Source: Streptomyces griseiscabiei
Lineage (GTDB): Bacteria; Actinomycetota; Actinomycetes; Streptomycetales; Streptomycetaceae
DNA length: 64,000 nucleotides
Assembly (NCBI RefSeq): GCF_020010925.1
Contig: NZ_JAGJBZ010000002.1
Span: 2,046,001 to 2,110,000, forward strand
Direction of reading: 5' to 3'
Part shown: piece after piece, positions 16,394 to 38,061 of the stretch
Position numbering within the stretch: the stretch's first letter is position 1
Layout: every line of letters begins with the position of its first letter
Translations under genes and position numbers: made by a program
Notes under the pieces: model-generated
What the model was told of the DNA's origin: nothing
The model's input: only the letters and a program-made list of their open reading frames with translations
The model's database searches: none

Positions 16394-16422
16394 GAGGTAC
16401 GTCGTCGGCTGCGGGCCCGGTG

Positions 16423-16535
16423 GAGCTTCTCGCGCAGTTCCCCGCGCCCCTGAAAGAGGCATGCGGCCCTTTCGGGGAAAAGCACGGGGCGCAGCCCCTG
16501 CTTTTCAGGGGCGCGGGCAACTGCGCGACCAGCTC
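16423..16535. repeat. Long imperfect inverted repeat of a Streptomyces intergenic family
   Basis: Arms of about 34 bases (16423-16455 and 16501-16535) differ at only three aligned positions plus one indel, and enclose a smaller hairpin around GGGGC-GCA-GCCCC. The core GCGCAGTTCCCCGCGCCCCT recurs at 35338-35357, and a shortened version occurs near 57057-57075, so this is a dispersed repeat. It lies between the convergent sulfotransferase and ATP-grasp genes and may end both transcripts. The differences between arms are transversions, so there is no sign of strand-specific RNA pairing. Confidence 0.7.
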
Positions 16536-16603
16536 CCACCGAACCCGCACGTCCCCACCCACCCCCGCGCGGAGCGCGAAAAGGGGGGCGAGACCCTTCC
16601 GGG

Positions 16604-20713: not shown

Positions 20714-20743
20714 CCGCGTCCCGCCGACGGTCCGCCGGGACTT

Positions 20744-20772
20744 GACGGTCCGCCGGGACTCGGCGGACCGTC
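20744..20772. terminator. Bidirectional hairpin between convergent genes
   Basis: 11-bp perfect stem (20744-20754 with 20762-20772, arm GACGGTCCGCC) and 7-base loop. The left arm is part of a tandem 18-mer repeat that starts at 20726. It sits between the polyprenyl synthase (plus) and the small gene at 20803 (minus). Confidence 0.5.
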
Positions 20773-20802
20773 AGGACTCCGGCGCCCCGTCGGCGGAACC
20801 GC

Positions 20803-21030
20803 TCACCTCTCCGGGCACCAGCTCCGCAGCAGGCGGAAGAACTCCTCCTCGTTCCCCGACAGTCCCGCCGCGGCCAGTGCCTGCTCCGCCTCGGCGAGTG
20901 CGGCGGGCGGCACGACGGGTGGTCGGCGGGACTCGGGCGGCCCGTCGAAGGCCGCTCGTACGGTTCCCAGCAGCCGCAGATAGGCCTGTACGGCGGCGCG
21001 CTCGCGGTCGGTCAGTACGGCGGTCGGCAT
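20803..21030 (-). CDS. Small hypothetical protein (75 residues)
   Basis: Predicted soluble, helix-rich protein of 75 residues with no recognised domain. It starts MPTAVLTDRERAAVQAYL and ends LRSWCPER; the only cysteine is near the C-terminus. The ATG at 21030 has GGGGAGAG eight bases upstream, and codon bias is typical. It may be the last gene of the leftward cassette (XRE, peptidase, membrane protein, oxygenase), 128 bp after the oxygenase stop. No function can be assigned. Confidence 0.55.
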   Translation of the reverse strand: MPTAVLTDRERAAVQAYLRLLGTVRAAFDGPPESRRPPVVPPAALAEAEQALAAAGLSGNEEEFFRLLRSWCPER

Positions 21031-31544: not shown

Positions 31545-31723
31545 GAGCTGTTCCCTTGCGGCTCGTGTCCCTGGGGGTGGGCGAGCATCCACTCCCACAT
31601 CTCGATGGGGTCCTGCGCGGTGTGTTCCCGCCCGCAGTGACAGGTCCCGTGCAGGATGTCCGTGCCCGGCAGCCAGTCGATGCGGTAGACCTCGCCGGTC
31701 CCGAACGTGGGCGGTGTACTCAC
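31541..31723 (-). CDS. 60-residue CHC-motif protein between oxygenase and reductase
   Basis: Small protein of 60 residues, too short for most gene finders. GTG 31723 overlaps the oxygenase stop (GTGA), and its own stop overlaps the reductase start (ATGA), so it is translationally coupled to both, which is strong evidence that it is real. It contains HGTCHCGREH, a possible metal site, and WEWMLAHPQGHE. No known domain; it could be an assembly factor or a small electron-transfer or stabilising subunit. Confidence 0.75.
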   Translation of the reverse strand: MSTPPTFGTGEVYRIDWLPGTDILHGTCHCGREHTAQDPIEMWEWMLAHPQGHEPQGNSS

Positions 31724-32784
31724 TGGACCTGCTCCACCGGCTTCTCGCCCTGCTCGACCAGCCGCGCGAGGATCCGCCGGGCCGCGAGCCCACCGGTGTC
31801 GATGTTGATGCTCAGCTCCTGGTAGCCGGTGCGCTCCGAGCCCAGCGTCTTCTGGAGCAGGTTCAGCGCGACGACGTCCTGCATGACGACCGTGTGGTTG
31901 TTGCCCTTGAGGAACTCGGTGACCTCGTCGCTCTCGGTGGCCCAGTCCCGGGAGACCATCCAGAAGTCGTACACCTTGCCGTCCGTGGACGGGGTGATCG
32001 CGTAGGTGATCTCGGTGTGGAAACCGTTCGGGTCGCTGCCGTCCGCCTCCGGGACCACGCCCACCGGGGCGATCCGGCTGTGCAGCAGATACAGGCACGG
32101 GGCGAAGTACTCGATGTCCTGCCAGCGGGTGATCCGGCCCTCGATGCCGGTCGACTTCGCGTAGAACGGCGGGCACTCGGCGTCGTCCATGTGCCGGCTC
32201 ACCCGCACCACCCCGGCGCCCTCGTCGACCTCGGTGGTGATCGGTGTCTCCGCGACCTCGGGGGTGCCGATGTAGCCGCCGTGCAGATACGTCTCGTGGG
32301 AGAGGTCGAGCAGGTTGTCGACGAGGAGCCCGTAGTCGGCGTCGATCGGCTCCATACCGCGTACGGTCGTCCAGCCCGGGGCGGCCAGGTGCTTCGCGCG
32401 CGGGATGGTCCCCGCGTCGGCGAGCGCCGGGTCGCCTATCCACACCCAGATCAGCGAATCCTGCTCCACCACCGGGTACGAGGCCACCCGCGCGGTCCGC
32501 GGTATCCGCTTCTGCCCCGGCACGTACACACAGGCGCCGGTCGTGTCGTACGTGAAGCCGTGGTACCCGCACACGATCCGGTCCCCGTCCAGCCCGCTCT
32601 CCGACAGCGGGTACCGGCGGTGCACACACCGGTCGTGCAGCGCGACCGGCGTGCCCTCCTCCTCGGTCCGGTAGAACACCAGCGGCTCCCCGAGGATCGT
32701 CCGGCCGAGCAGCTCCCGCCCGACCTCTTCGGCGTAGGCGGCGACGTACCACTGATTCCTGGCGAAGGCGGTGGTGTGAGGCAT
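31720..32784 (-). CDS. Rieske non-heme iron oxygenase, vanillate O-demethylase-like
   Basis: Oxygenase component of 354 residues, the length of VanA. The Rieske centre is CVHRRYPLSESG followed by CGYHG (C-x-H ... C-x2-H), and the mononuclear iron site is in NLLDLSHETYLHG with a later Asp. ATG 32784 is preceded by a weak ribosome site. VanA converts vanillate to protocatechuate and formaldehyde with electrons from VanB, and the downstream genes encode such a reductase. Other methoxy- or carboxy-aromatics are possible substrates. The product protocatechuate would feed the pca operon found at 45140-51685. Confidence 0.85.
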   Translation of the reverse strand: MPHTTAFARNQWYVAAYAEEVGRELLGRTILGEPLVFYRTEEEGTPVALHDRCVHRRYPLSESGLDGDRIVCGYHGFTYDTTGACVYVPGQKRIPRTARVASYPVVEQDSLIWVWIGDPALADAGTIPRAKHLAAPGWTTVRGMEPIDADYGLLVDNLLDLSHETYLHGGYIGTPEVAETPITTEVDEGAGVVRVSRHMDDAECPPFYAKSTGIEGRITRWQDIEYFAPCLYLLHSRIAPVGVVPEADGSDPNGFHTEITYAITPSTDGKVYDFWMVSRDWATESDEVTEFLKGNNHTVVMQDVVALNLLQKTLGSERTGYQELSINIDTGGLAARRILARLVEQGEKPVEQVQ

Positions 32785-33233
32785 GGCGATCCCGTCCCTG
32801 AGAACCCTGAGAACCCGGTGTGCGGAGCCGTGTCGCCCCGCGTGCCACCACATTCCTGAGCGGGCCCGGGGTCGGGCAATACCGCTTCCGTCAGACGGAA
32901 GGACCGCTTTGCCCGGCCGTGGCGCGCCCGCCCGGCGCTGTTCGCGCGGTGGACCCCGACGTGTCACACCCGCGCCACGGACCCTTCCCCGGCGTTCGTT
33001 CCTCTTGGACCATTCCCCGGGGGTGCTTCGAGAGTCCCGCACAGTGCCTGGGGCGCCCGGCACGCACCCTCGCCGCACCGGCCAAAGACCCAAGTAGCTC
33101 CGCTACGAGGGCCTTCGTCCGGCACGCCGAGGGCACGCACCGGACACCCCAGGCACCGCACAGGACTCTCGAAGCACCCCCGTCGCGCAGGTCACATCCG
33201 ACGCACCACGTCAGGACAAGAGGTCTTCCACCC
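32785..33233. other. 449-bp intergenic region between the Rieske operon and phospholipase C
   Basis: No convincing gene on either strand. It contains the 165-nt inverted repeat at 33018-33182 (listed separately) and the divergent promoters of both neighbours, which I could not place with confidence. Confidence 0.6.
33018..33182 (-). ncRNA. Long structured RNA/palindromic element, hairpin predicted on minus strand
   Basis: Outer arms 33018-33072 and 33128-33182 pair over 55 positions; an inner stem brings the total to 77 pairs around a GGA loop (GTAGC-GGA-GCTAC at the tip). Read as DNA the outer arms have ten mismatches and the inner stem four, but every one is C/A or A/C on the plus strand and so becomes a G-U pair if the minus strand is transcribed. 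The hairpin would lie 234 nt before the Rieske oxygenase start codon, in its leader or as a separate RNA. An 18-base piece of the arm recurs at 52403-52420. No promoter could be assigned. Confidence 0.6.
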
Positions 33234-35279
33234 ATGCCTGAAGTCAACCGGCGGCGATTCCTCCAGGTCGCGGGCGCCACAACGGCGTTCAGCGCACTGT
33301 CGGCCAGTATCCAGCGGGCCGCGGCGCTGCCCGCGCACCACCGTTCCGGCACGATCGAGGACGTCGAGCACATCGTCGTCCTGATGCAGGAGAACCGGTC
33401 CTTCGACCACTACTTCGGCGCGCTGAGAGGGGTACGCGGCTTCGGCGACCCGCACCCGGTGACGCTGGACAACGGCAGGAGCGTGTGGCACCAGTCGGAC
33501 GGCACGAAGGACGTGCTGCCGTTCCACCCCGAGGCCGACGATCTCGGGATGCAGTTCCTGGAGGGCCTGCCGCACAGCTGGCCGGACGGGCACGCCGCCT
33601 ACAACGGCGGCAAGTACGACAGGTGGGTGCCCGCCAAGGGCACCACGACCATGGCGTATCTGACCCGCGAGGACATCCCGTTCCACTACGCCCTCGCCGA
33701 CACGTTCACCGTGTGCGACGCCTACCACTGCTCGTTCATCGGCTCGACCGACCCCAACCGCTACTACATGTGGACCGGGTACACGGGCAACGACGGCAAG
33801 GGCGGCGGCCCCGTCCTCGGCAACGACGAACTCGGCTACGGCTGGACCACCTACCCCGAGCGCCTCGAAGCGGCCGGGGTCTCCTGGAAGATCTACCAGG
33901 ACATCGGCGACGGCCTGGACGCGGCCGGCTCCTGGGGCTGGATAGCGGACGCCTACCGGGGCAACTACGGCGACAACTCGCTGCTGTACTTCAACAAGTA
34001 CCGCGACGCCAAGCCCGGCGACCCCTGGTACGACAAGGCCCGCACCGGTACGGACGCCAAGGCCGGCGACGGCTACTTCGACCTGCTCAAGGCCGACGTG
34101 AAGGCCGGGAAGCTGCCGCAGATCTCCTGGATCGCCGCGCCCGAGGCGTTCTCCGAGCACTCCAACTGGCCCTCGAACTACGGCGCCTGGTACATCTCCC
34201 AGGTCCTCGACGCGCTGACCTCCGACCCGGCGGTCTGGGCGAGGACGGCCCTGTTCATCACCTATGACGAGAACGACGGCTTCTTCGACCACCTCGTGCC
34301 GCCGCTCCCGCCGCGCGACGCGGCCCACGGCAGGTCCACGGTCGACGTCTCCCTCGACCTCTACCAGGGCGACGCCAACCGGGTCGCCGGGCCGTACGGT
34401 CTCGGCCCGCGCGTCCCGATGCTGGTCGTCTCGCCCTGGAGCAAGGGCGGTTACGTCTGCTCGGAGACCCTCGACCACACCTCGATCCTGCGGTTCATGG
34501 AGCGCCGGTTCGGGGTGAAGGAGCCGAACATCTCGCCGTGGCGGCGGGCCGTCTGCGGTGATCTGACCTCGGCGTTCGACTTCTCCCGCAAGGACAGCCG
34601 GCCGGCCGCGCTGCCCGGCACCGACGCGTACGAGCCGCAGGACCGGGAGCGGCACCCCGACTACAGGCCCGCCGTCCCGGCGGACCCGAGCATGCCGAGG
34701 CAGGAGCGGGGGTCGCGTCCCGCCCGGCCGCTCAAGTACGCGCCCAGGGTGGACGGTTCGGCCGATCCCGGGGCCGGGACCCTCACCCTCACGTTCGCCT
34801 CCGGCGGCAGGGCGGGCGCGGCGTTCCTGGTCACCTCCGGCAACCGTACGGACGGGCCGTGGACGTACACGACCGAGGCGGGCAAGGCCGTGTCGGACAC
34901 ATGGAGTTCCGCGGCCTCCGGCGGCTCGTACGACCTCACTGTGCACGGGCCGAACGGCTTCCTGCGGGTCTTCCAGGGGCCGGGGAGGACGCGTGGGCCC
35001 GAGGTCACCGCGCGGCACGTCGGCGACGACGTGGAGCTGACCTTCACCAACAAGGGCTCCGCGGCGGTGAGCCTGAAGGTCGTCAGCGCGTACGGGGGAC
35101 GGTCCCGTACGGTCCGGGTGCGGGCCGGGGCGACCGTCCGGCAGACCGTCGAACTGCGGGCGAGCCGGCGGTGGTACGACCTGACGGTCACCGGCGGCGG
35201 GGGGTTCCTCCGGAGGTTCGCCGGACATGTGGAGAACGGGCGCGTCGGGGTGAGTGATCCGGCGCTGGGGCGGAGGTAG
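33234..35279 (+). CDS. Secreted phospholipase C, phosphocholine-specific
   Basis: Non-haemolytic-type phospholipase C, 681 residues. Signal: NRRRFLQVAG (twin-arginine, residues 4-13). The catalytic phosphoesterase domain shows QENRSFDHYFG, ADTFTVCDAYHCSFIG and TYDENDGFFDH. From about residue 500 two DUF756-type beta domains follow, as in this family. ATG 33234 has AAGAGG about ten bases upstream. It would release phosphocholine from phosphatidylcholine outside the cell. It is transcribed alone, away from the Rieske operon. Confidence 0.92.
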   Translation: MPEVNRRRFLQVAGATTAFSALSASIQRAAALPAHHRSGTIEDVEHIVVLMQENRSFDHYFGALRGVRGFGDPHPVTLDNGRSVWHQSDGTKDVLPFHPEADDLGMQFLEGLPHSWPDGHAAYNGGKYDRWVPAKGTTTMAYLTREDIPFHYALADTFTVCDAYHCSFIGSTDPNRYYMWTGYTGNDGKGGGPVLGNDELGYGWTTYPERLEAAGVSWKIYQDIGDGLDAAGSWGWIADAYRGNYGDNSLLYFNKYRDAKPGDPWYDKARTGTDAKAGDGYFDLLKADVKAGKLPQISWIAAPEAFSEHSNWPSNYGAWYISQVLDALTSDPAVWARTALFITYDENDGFFDHLVPPLPPRDAAHGRSTVDVSLDLYQGDANRVAGPYGLGPRVPMLVVSPWSKGGYVCSETLDHTSILRFMERRFGVKEPNISPWRRAVCGDLTSAFDFSRKDSRPAALPGTDAYEPQDRERHPDYRPAVPADPSMPRQERGSRPARPLKYAPRVDGSADPGAGTLTLTFASGGRAGAAFLVTSGNRTDGPWTYTTEAGKAVSDTWSSAASGGSYDLTVHGPNGFLRVFQGPGRTRGPEVTARHVGDDVELTFTNKGSAAVSLKVVSAYGGRSRTVRVRAGATVRQTVELRASRRWYDLTVTGGGGFLRRFAGHVENGRVGVSDPALGRR

Positions 35280-37238: not shown

Positions 37239-37414
37239 ACATCGATACGACCTCGTACCGGTACAGCTCCGTACCGGTACAGCCTCGTACCGATACGCGC
37301 TGGTACCGATACGAGAGTGTACCGATACGCCACTGTACCGAAACGACGGGGTATCGATACGGCACTGTACCGATACGTTGGCGTTCCGGTACAGTGGCGT
37401 ATCGACAGGCCTTT
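37239..37414. repeat. Array of ten 16-bp repeats with GTACCGATAC palindromic core
   Basis: Ten units start at 37255, 37271, 37287, 37303, 37319, 37335, 37351, 37367, 37383 and 37399, exactly 16 bp apart. The cores are GTACCGGTAC (twice), GTACCGATAC (four times) and close variants GTACCGAAAC, GTATCGATAC, GTTCCGGTAC and GTATCGACAG; the 6-bp spacers vary. A degenerate unit (ACATCGATAC) precedes them in phase at 37239. Each core is a palindrome or near-palindrome. The array fills the space between the PAP2 start and the TetR gene and is likely a cooperative operator for the TetR protein. Confidence 0.85.
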
Positions 37415-37446: not shown

Positions 37447-38061
37447 ATGACGTCGCAGGCAGCGGACGGGCCGGAGACGGCCGTCGCCTCGCGCCGCTCC
37501 AAGCTCACGCCCGAGCGTGAGCAGGAGTTCTTCGACGCTGTGCTCGAACAGGTCCGTGAGTGCGGGTACGACTCGGTGACCATGGAGGGCGTCGCCGCGA
37601 CCACGCGGTGCAGCAAGTCGACGCTCTACCGGCAGTGGAGGACGAAACCGCAGTTCGTGGCCGCCGCGCTGCGCGCCCGCCGCAGTGTCCGCTTCGCCGG
37701 GATCGACACCGGCACCCTCGCCGGTGACCTGCGCGAGGTGGCCCGGCACGCGGGGGAGGGCTACGTCCTGGAGGGTCGGCTCTTCCAGGCCCTCGGCAAT
37801 GCCGTCGTGCAGGACGAGGAGTTGAAGACCGCCCTGCGGGACGCGCTGGTGGAACCGGAGATCGAGGCGCTCCGGGCGATGATCGCCCGGGGAGTGGCCC
37901 GGGGCGAGGTCGCCGCGGACCATCCGGCGCTGGAGTTCATCCCCGCACAGGTTTTCGGCGTCCTGCGGGCCCGGCCGGTCCTGGAGGGCAAGGACGCGGA
38001 CGAGACATACATCATCAAGTTCATCGAGGCGGCCGTGCTGCCGACGCTCGGCCTCGTATGA
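37447..38061 (+). CDS. TetR/AcrR-family transcriptional regulator
   Basis: Repressor of 204 residues. The HTH is in the N-terminal third: MEGVAATTRCSKSTLYRQW (about 55-73). The C-terminal ligand domain resembles the TetR_C_16-type group, with EALRAMIARGVARGEV late. ATG 37447 has GAAGGAGA eight bases upstream. It lies directly downstream of the ten-unit array, and opposite it are the PAP2 and EamA genes. The gene ends before a strong terminator. The ligand is unknown, probably the EamA substrate. Confidence 0.9.
   Translation: MTSQAADGPETAVASRRSKLTPEREQEFFDAVLEQVRECGYDSVTMEGVAATTRCSKSTLYRQWRTKPQFVAAALRARRSVRFAGIDTGTLAGDLREVARHAGEGYVLEGRLFQALGNAVVQDEELKTALRDALVEPEIEALRAMIARGVARGEVAADHPALEFIPAQVFGVLRARPVLEGKDADETYIIKFIEAAVLPTLGLV

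Follow-up and report, generated by a model that had tools for sequence, protein, structure and literature searches.

Two divergent genes of Streptomyces griseiscabiei, one for a Rieske oxygenase and one for a phospholipase C, are separated by a region that contains a 165-nt imperfect palindrome (33018–33182, centre 33100). Coordinates are those of the window, the whole stretch of DNA analysed here, which comprises 64,000 nt of the forward strand of contig NZ_JAGJBZ010000002.1 (positions 2,046,001–2,110,000; assembly GCF_020010925.1). The palindrome sits on the leader side of the plus-strand phospholipase C gene, among the following features.

31720..32784, minus strand: divergent Rieske oxygenase gene (ORF; PF00355, PF19112), start codon 233 nt from the element
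32982..33015, plus strand: promoter-like conserved block upstream of the phospholipase C gene (seen at 23 of 48 orthologous loci; putative promoter role)
33018..33182, minus strand as the G-U-rich strand: whole element copy, a 165-nt hairpin (pair count, folds, end-to-end alignment of relatives)
33019..33037, plus strand: outer terminal repeat, one arm, GGGGGTGCTTCGAGAGTCC; flanking TA lost (CC), as judged from relatives keeping CTA/TAG
33048..33153, minus strand: conserved 106-nt core hairpin, common to copies with other terminal repeats (match to the core model R1)
33094..33106, minus strand: hairpin tip GTAGC-GGA-GCTAC (read directly and from the fold)
33163..33181, minus strand: outer terminal repeat, second arm; flanking TA lost (GT), as judged from relatives keeping CTA/TAG
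33234..35279, plus strand: phospholipase C gene (ORF; PF04185, PF05506), whose leader region holds the element

A hairpin that folds best on one strand

Our recount of the hairpin gave figures identical to those of the original prediction, which had described 77 pairs with all 14 imperfections being G-U on the minus strand. Read on that strand, the 82 symmetric positions comprise 50 G-C or C-G, 13 A-U or U-A and 14 G-U or U-G pairs, with 5 non-pairs including the loop edge, and thus 63 Watson–Crick and 14 wobble pairs in total. The wobbles divide evenly into seven G-U and seven U-G, which read as seven C-A and seven A-C on the plus strand. Folding of both strands, proposed as a check on that prediction, favoured the minus strand: the RNA fold of 33010–33190 has an energy of −166.5 kcal/mol (z = −16.3) on the minus strand and −116.4 kcal/mol (z = −10.3) on the plus strand, and none of 200 shuffles matched the native energy on either. 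The covariance model R1, which describes the 106-nt core and was derived from 24 copies in 12 genomes, scores the window core at 101.6 bits on the minus strand and 48.0 bits on the opposite strand. No Rfam family reached its gathering score within the 64-kb window.

Four tandem U-G/G-U steps occur at minus-strand element positions 23/24, 44/45, 48/49 and 59/60; their spacings of 21, 4 and 11 pairs come close to one and two helical turns of RNA, which may be chance. Elsewhere in the window, further strong palindromes at 16419–16539 and 20714–20805 have weak R1 scores on both strands (25.7–26.6 bits). Diverged 16/32-nt repeats with the pattern CGATACG...GTAC form an array (37243–37377) some 70 nt ahead of the ORF at 37447, a putative TetR-type regulator; the repeats could be an operator array.

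A dispersed family across Streptomyces

A BLAST search returned 36 matches in the genome of origin, counting the query and its opposite strand. In a sample of 61 genomes of relatives, to which the own genome belongs, 23 had matches. With R1, at least 37 distinct places were found in the own genome (45 matches less 8 opposite-strand duplicates, among the best 150 of 25,909 candidates). Matches extend to 99 of 147 genomes across the order and 138 of 199 sampled across the genus; the genus is industrially important and copies lie at many gene ends. The four genomes from outside the genus among the matches listed have weaker matches (best E values of 2.5e-8 to 4.9e-4).

The copies are dispersed among unrelated flanks, as expected of a miniature inverted-repeat transposable element (MITE, a non-autonomous DNA transposon). 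Sets with equal core score and unrelated flanks occur in three genomes (G149, G062 and G217), and near-identical copies are numerous in G149, G062, G175, G235 and G328. Searches of the open-licence literature on Streptomyces palindromic and miniature inverted repeats, MITEs, IS630, REP, RNase III and MITE wobble did not find the family described among the titles listed, and a search with the letters of the core itself found no paper; a review of prokaryotic MITEs (PMC10969869) does not mention Streptomyces in its main text.

Element ends and candidate transposases

Both ends could be located in 126 copies. The 71 distinct elements, of 149–211 bp (median 163), have the short length and terminal inverted repeats of a MITE; this length suggests an element without coding capacity of its own. 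CTA on the left and TAG on the right bound 118 of the 126 copies, in a search that required TA at each end and not the C or G of these triplets. Copies without TA at both ends were left out of the end counts (66 of 183, and then 2 near a locus end, in arriving at the 115-copy set).

Ten end classes were compared with transposons whose PF13340 and PF13358 transposases were taken from four genomes, 60 loci being screened for ends. An IS630-type element (L376, PF13358) has ends that share 18 of 22 positions with one class, GTGCCGCGGCAGGCAACGTTTG. Four other classes share 15–20 of 22 with IS5-type (PF13340) elements (L321, L335 and L345); the class of the window copy matches L335 at 16 of 22. The remaining five classes reach only 11–13 of 22 with any transposon tested. 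Background similarity averages 6.4–7.0 of 22 over 587 CTA-following 22-mers, of which 1–15 reach the best score of a class, a background that may still include other copies of the same elements.

No autonomous copy with the MITE ends was found with the pattern TTCTGRTGGATCTCCG in genome G000 (18 sites, nine loci checked for a partner end, ORFs examined at four of the nine) or with CTAGTGCCGCGGCAGGNAACGT in six genomes (15 regions among the matches listed, six examined further); the sites turned out to be MITEs, short end-only palindromes and truncated ends. For one copy in G149 (L257), a clean empty site with a single TA was not recovered, the flank matches in G032 being rearranged.

Several variant forms accompany the family. 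At L064 and L065, palindromes of about 60 bp consist of the two terminal repeats only, flanked by CTAG, and are core-less deletion forms. A second palindrome, GTGGGGGTACCTCCCGCTCGAGCGAAGCCGAGAGTGGGGGAG, and its variants are nested in the core at a few recurrent places (L008, L009, L013–L016, L025–L027, L034, L054 and L055); its motif GAGCGAAGCCGAGA has a single exact occurrence in the window (20644), where the chance expectation is about one with up to two mismatches. A second core type, GTGCGTGCGATCGCAAGGCGCCGG, characterizes the L101-type group in G101 (L470, L471, L476, L478 and others), whose different ends, AGAGCTGCGAACAAAAGGGG, are flanked by TTA/CTA and TAA/TAG and match no transposon among those tested.

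At L270 and L285, the end of an IS630-type element begins exactly at the right-hand TAG of the MITE (as compared with L357 and L375), the end of the MITE thus having been used as a CTAG target. These two loci suggest how ends might be exchanged, given that CTAG is formed anew by the ends of the element itself.

Insertion into gene borders and stop codons

In the window, the element begins 2 nt past the conserved block and ends 51 nt short of the phospholipase C start codon. The block is recognisable at 23 of 48 examined orthologous phospholipase C loci, where 36–94 nt separate it from the start codon; in the window the separation is 218 nt, taken up by the element. All 23 of these loci lack the element, and R1 had no match upstream of the phospholipase C gene at 80 orthologous loci (two weak hits, at L095 and L078, are both downstream). 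Because the flanking TA is gone on both sides (CC and GT), the window copy looks old, and it need not have a function in the phospholipase C leader. Among the options originally offered for the hairpin was a mobile palindrome, and this one is supported. The tie to the Rieske gene was not, the hairpin being a dispersed insertion that is absent from the 23 recognisable orthologous upstream regions.

In 82 of 115 copies an element end coincides exactly with the in-frame stop of an adjacent gene, compared with 94 of the 345 other CTAG sites of the fetched loci (element ends excluded), or 46 of 186 with every locus centre also excluded. The first letter of the element is G, so that a copy entering C-TA-G re-forms TAG at each junction; a C-TAG stop codon is thereby restored, and insertions at gene ends would therefore do little harm. 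We read the stop-codon positions as probable products of target choice together with the loss of harmful insertions. At one conserved gene end (...SYAGQVIxCP-stop), present in two genomes (L264 and L299), elements at the same TAG differ in their terminal repeats, which makes two separate hits on one stop codon probable.

Orientation of the core was fixed by sequence profile and not by energy. Among 95 copies, the in-frame stop lies on the G-U-sense side in 29, the opposite side in 27, both in 8 and neither in 30, with 1 undefined; the corresponding counts for the 115 copies, a set that overlaps the 95, are 42, 27, 13 and 33. Coding frames were recognised by a home-made composition rule rather than by a gene finder. 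Gene context was assigned for 132 copies: 52 are convergent, 11 divergent, 12 inside a frame and 12 beside a single neighbour, and the co-directional copies have the G-U strand antisense in 30 cases and sense in 15. No consistent preference for the sense orientation emerges: the ratios 15:30, 29:27 and 42:27, from partly overlapping sets, point apart and are taken as no evidence.

Evolution of the core as a one-strand helix

The G-U strand gives the stronger fold in each of the 71 distinct elements whose two ends were located (mean −151.2 versus −112.4 kcal/mol). Compensatory changes, sought in related copies as a check on the predicted hairpin, are present: 17 of 44 core pairs have a two-sided change among 24 copies. 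In an ungapped count of 96 distinct cores (L317–L376, cores needing gaps and low-scoring cores excluded), the 4,224 pair cells comprise 3,223 Watson–Crick, 850 G-U, 18 A-C and 133 other combinations. The same wobble is kept in 86–92 of the 96 cores at columns 15/93, 16/92, 19/89, 30/78 and 31/77, and the conserved wobbles form tandem U-G/G-U steps in GTGC motifs on both arms. In the outer repeats the G-U versus A-C asymmetry is only 25:12.

Changes were reconstructed by parsimony on a tree of 84 well-formed cores (12 of the 96, with fewer than 90% of pairs formed, excluded). GC>GU accounts for 44.7 events and GC>AC for 5.0 (23.4 versus 5.0 on terminal branches), whereas AU>GU versus AU>AC gives 5.0:2.5 in one count and 7.4:5.5 in another. 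Pair-keeping two-sided changes (41.9) are matched by pair-breaking changes (41.3), and G-U pairs turn over to G-C in 44.4 events and to A-U in 30.2. Rates depend on the partner: G>A occurs in 30 of 760 G-U cells versus 5 of 2,349 G-C cells, and T>C in 44 of 760 G-U cells versus about 2.5 of 538 A-U cells. At unpaired positions, C>T gives 7 variants over 24 C positions and G>A gives 8 over 85 G positions. Fisher and binomial values, which ignore the relatedness of the sequences, serve only as a guide.

Private changes in young copies give a mixed picture. Whole-element counts (24:19) had suggested recent private changes without a strand bias, but the core alone speaks against this, with GC>GU versus GC>AC at 18:11 (90% clustering) and 11:3 (95%). 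The corresponding AU>GU versus AU>AC counts are 5:11 and 2:2, and the bias may act either on scattered copies or on source lineages alone. Differences compatible with the plus strand had been named as what would count against a selected RNA; at the family level, 850 G-U against 18 A-C cells do not refute it.

The original prediction put the chance that all 14 wobbles fall on one strand at about 1 in 8,000. The arithmetic is correct (2 × 0.5^14), but the events are not independent, because 12 of the 14 are shared with relatives, being already G-U in at least five of eight aligned relatives from other genomes. Alignment thus marks these 12 as inherited, and with the G-U bias being family-wide the odds do not apply; the wobbles as independent events are rejected. 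The better fold of one strand and the compensatory changes in related copies were borne out. The comparisons indicate that the core evolves as a paired structure in which one strand matters, and RNA-level selection on it is plausible.

A probable MITE with a structured core

We conclude that the hairpin is very probably a decayed Streptomyces MITE whose core evolves as a one-strand helix. Its identity as a transposable element follows from the dispersed copies, the terminal inverted repeats, the CTA...TAG ends and the absence at orthologous sites. Counting against it are the searches that found neither a transposon with identical ends nor a clean empty site with a TA duplication, the five of ten end classes with only 11–13 of 22 matches, and the loss of the TA on both sides of the window copy. 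IS5-type (DUF4096) and IS630-type (DDE_3) transposases would move the element in trans, with the TA of the CTAG target presumably duplicated on insertion; landing in a C-TAG stop codon would remake the stop, leaving insertions at gene ends nearly harmless. Core changes tend to preserve G-C, A-U and G-U on one strand, with A-C rare, and the wobbles would keep the RNA double-stranded yet break the DNA palindrome. The most likely reason, which we consider about as probable as not, is that source copies are transcribed on the G-U strand and that lineages keeping the RNA hairpin propagate or persist better. RNA selection predicts that AU>GU should be commoner than AU>AC, and it is not clearly so; the inconsistent sense orientation and the equal numbers of pair-breaking and two-sided events also count against a role of the RNA.

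The wobble asymmetry might instead be mutational, with one-strand C-to-T changes in source copies (for example, possibly, on the non-template strand) producing G-T mispairs that arm-to-arm correction turns into G-C or A-T, and with no RNA function. We consider this a possible but doubtful account. It fits an asymmetry that is clear for GC>GU and not for AU>GU, the ready conversion of G-U to both G-C and A-U, and the frequent C>T at unpaired C, but it leaves unexplained why particular U-G/G-U steps are kept in nearly all cores and why the outer repeats, with the same DNA history, show so much weaker an asymmetry. Selection of the fold as single-stranded DNA bound by a strand-specific protein, as in REP/IS200-like systems, is improbable: DNA folds of 33018–33182 do differ in the same sense (−85.7 minus, −61.0 plus), but TA-flanked terminal repeats at CTAG would indicate double-strand cut-and-paste, judging from the IS630 work (PMC2170065).

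Retention of copies as 3′-end RNA hairpins, acting as terminators or mRNA stabilisers, would suit the convergent genes around 52 of the 132 copies, the stop codons at 82 of 115 and the strong folds on both strands; we nevertheless think it unlikely, as the positions are explained by target choice and the elimination of harmful insertions, a host benefit predicts a preferred sense that is not consistently seen, and the window copy is 5′ of both genes. The earlier favourite, a leader RNA that would regulate the Rieske oxygenase gene specifically, has in its favour a hairpin upstream of the gene on the correct strand. We give it next to no credence and rejected it as a locus-specific leader, the hairpin being a dispersed repeat and an insertion relative to orthologous sites; moreover, the start codon is 233 nt away, and a simple sigma-70 and terminator scan of 32600–33400, which covers some of the Streptomyces promoter types, returned no promoter-like or terminator-like site.

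A bolder extension of the MITE interpretation, which we offer tentatively and regard as rather unlikely, is that the core, with its conserved tandem U-G/G-U steps, is a selfish structured RNA travelling as a MITE between the ends of two or more unrelated CTAG-targeting transposase families, and persisting only while its one-strand RNA folds. Transposases would then be interchangeable vehicles, the RNA fold the constant, and stop codons harmless landing sites. Two features would be new if confirmed: the sharing of a palindromic core by ends that belong to unrelated families of transposases, and the maintenance through covariation of a G-U fold on one strand, which would amount to RNA selection in a supposedly passive DNA element.

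Comparison with known systems

Correia and ERIC elements are about 100–160 bp long and have a TA target. The Correia elements of Neisseria (NEMIS) and the ERIC elements of enterobacteria are likewise short palindromic MITEs near genes. The Streptomyces element differs from both in having one core between ends like those of more than one transposase type; its G-U bias of one strand is marked. REPs are shorter than the Streptomyces element and are not known to have TA-flanked terminal repeats; those with a RAYT transposase have a conserved GTAG at the foot of the hairpin. Cleavage of Correia-containing transcripts by RNase III, and effects on transcript levels of ERIC at 3′ ends, are described in the MITE review (PMC10969869).

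Elements of the IS630/Tc1-mariner group insert at TA and duplicate it, according to one report (PMC2170065). Like these elements and their MITEs, the Streptomyces element has an end class that agrees at 18 of 22 positions with an IS630-type element; unlike them, it has other end classes, around the same core, that resemble IS5-type (DUF4096) elements.

Hairpins at gene ends also have precedents. Published studies describe short abundant RNAs from 3′ UTR palindromes in S. coelicolor RNA-seq (PMC4681348) and, for S. venezuelae, a structured phoU 3′ UTR as a proposed target of RNase III (PMC12096830). Stable intergenic stem-loops gather at gene 3′ ends in many genomes, with families from Yersiniae, Bordetellae and Enterococci, as set out in a further study (PMC1590033). 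Like such intergenic stem-loop repeats and REP/BIME, the Streptomyces element forms a stable stem-loop and is concentrated at the 3′ ends of genes.
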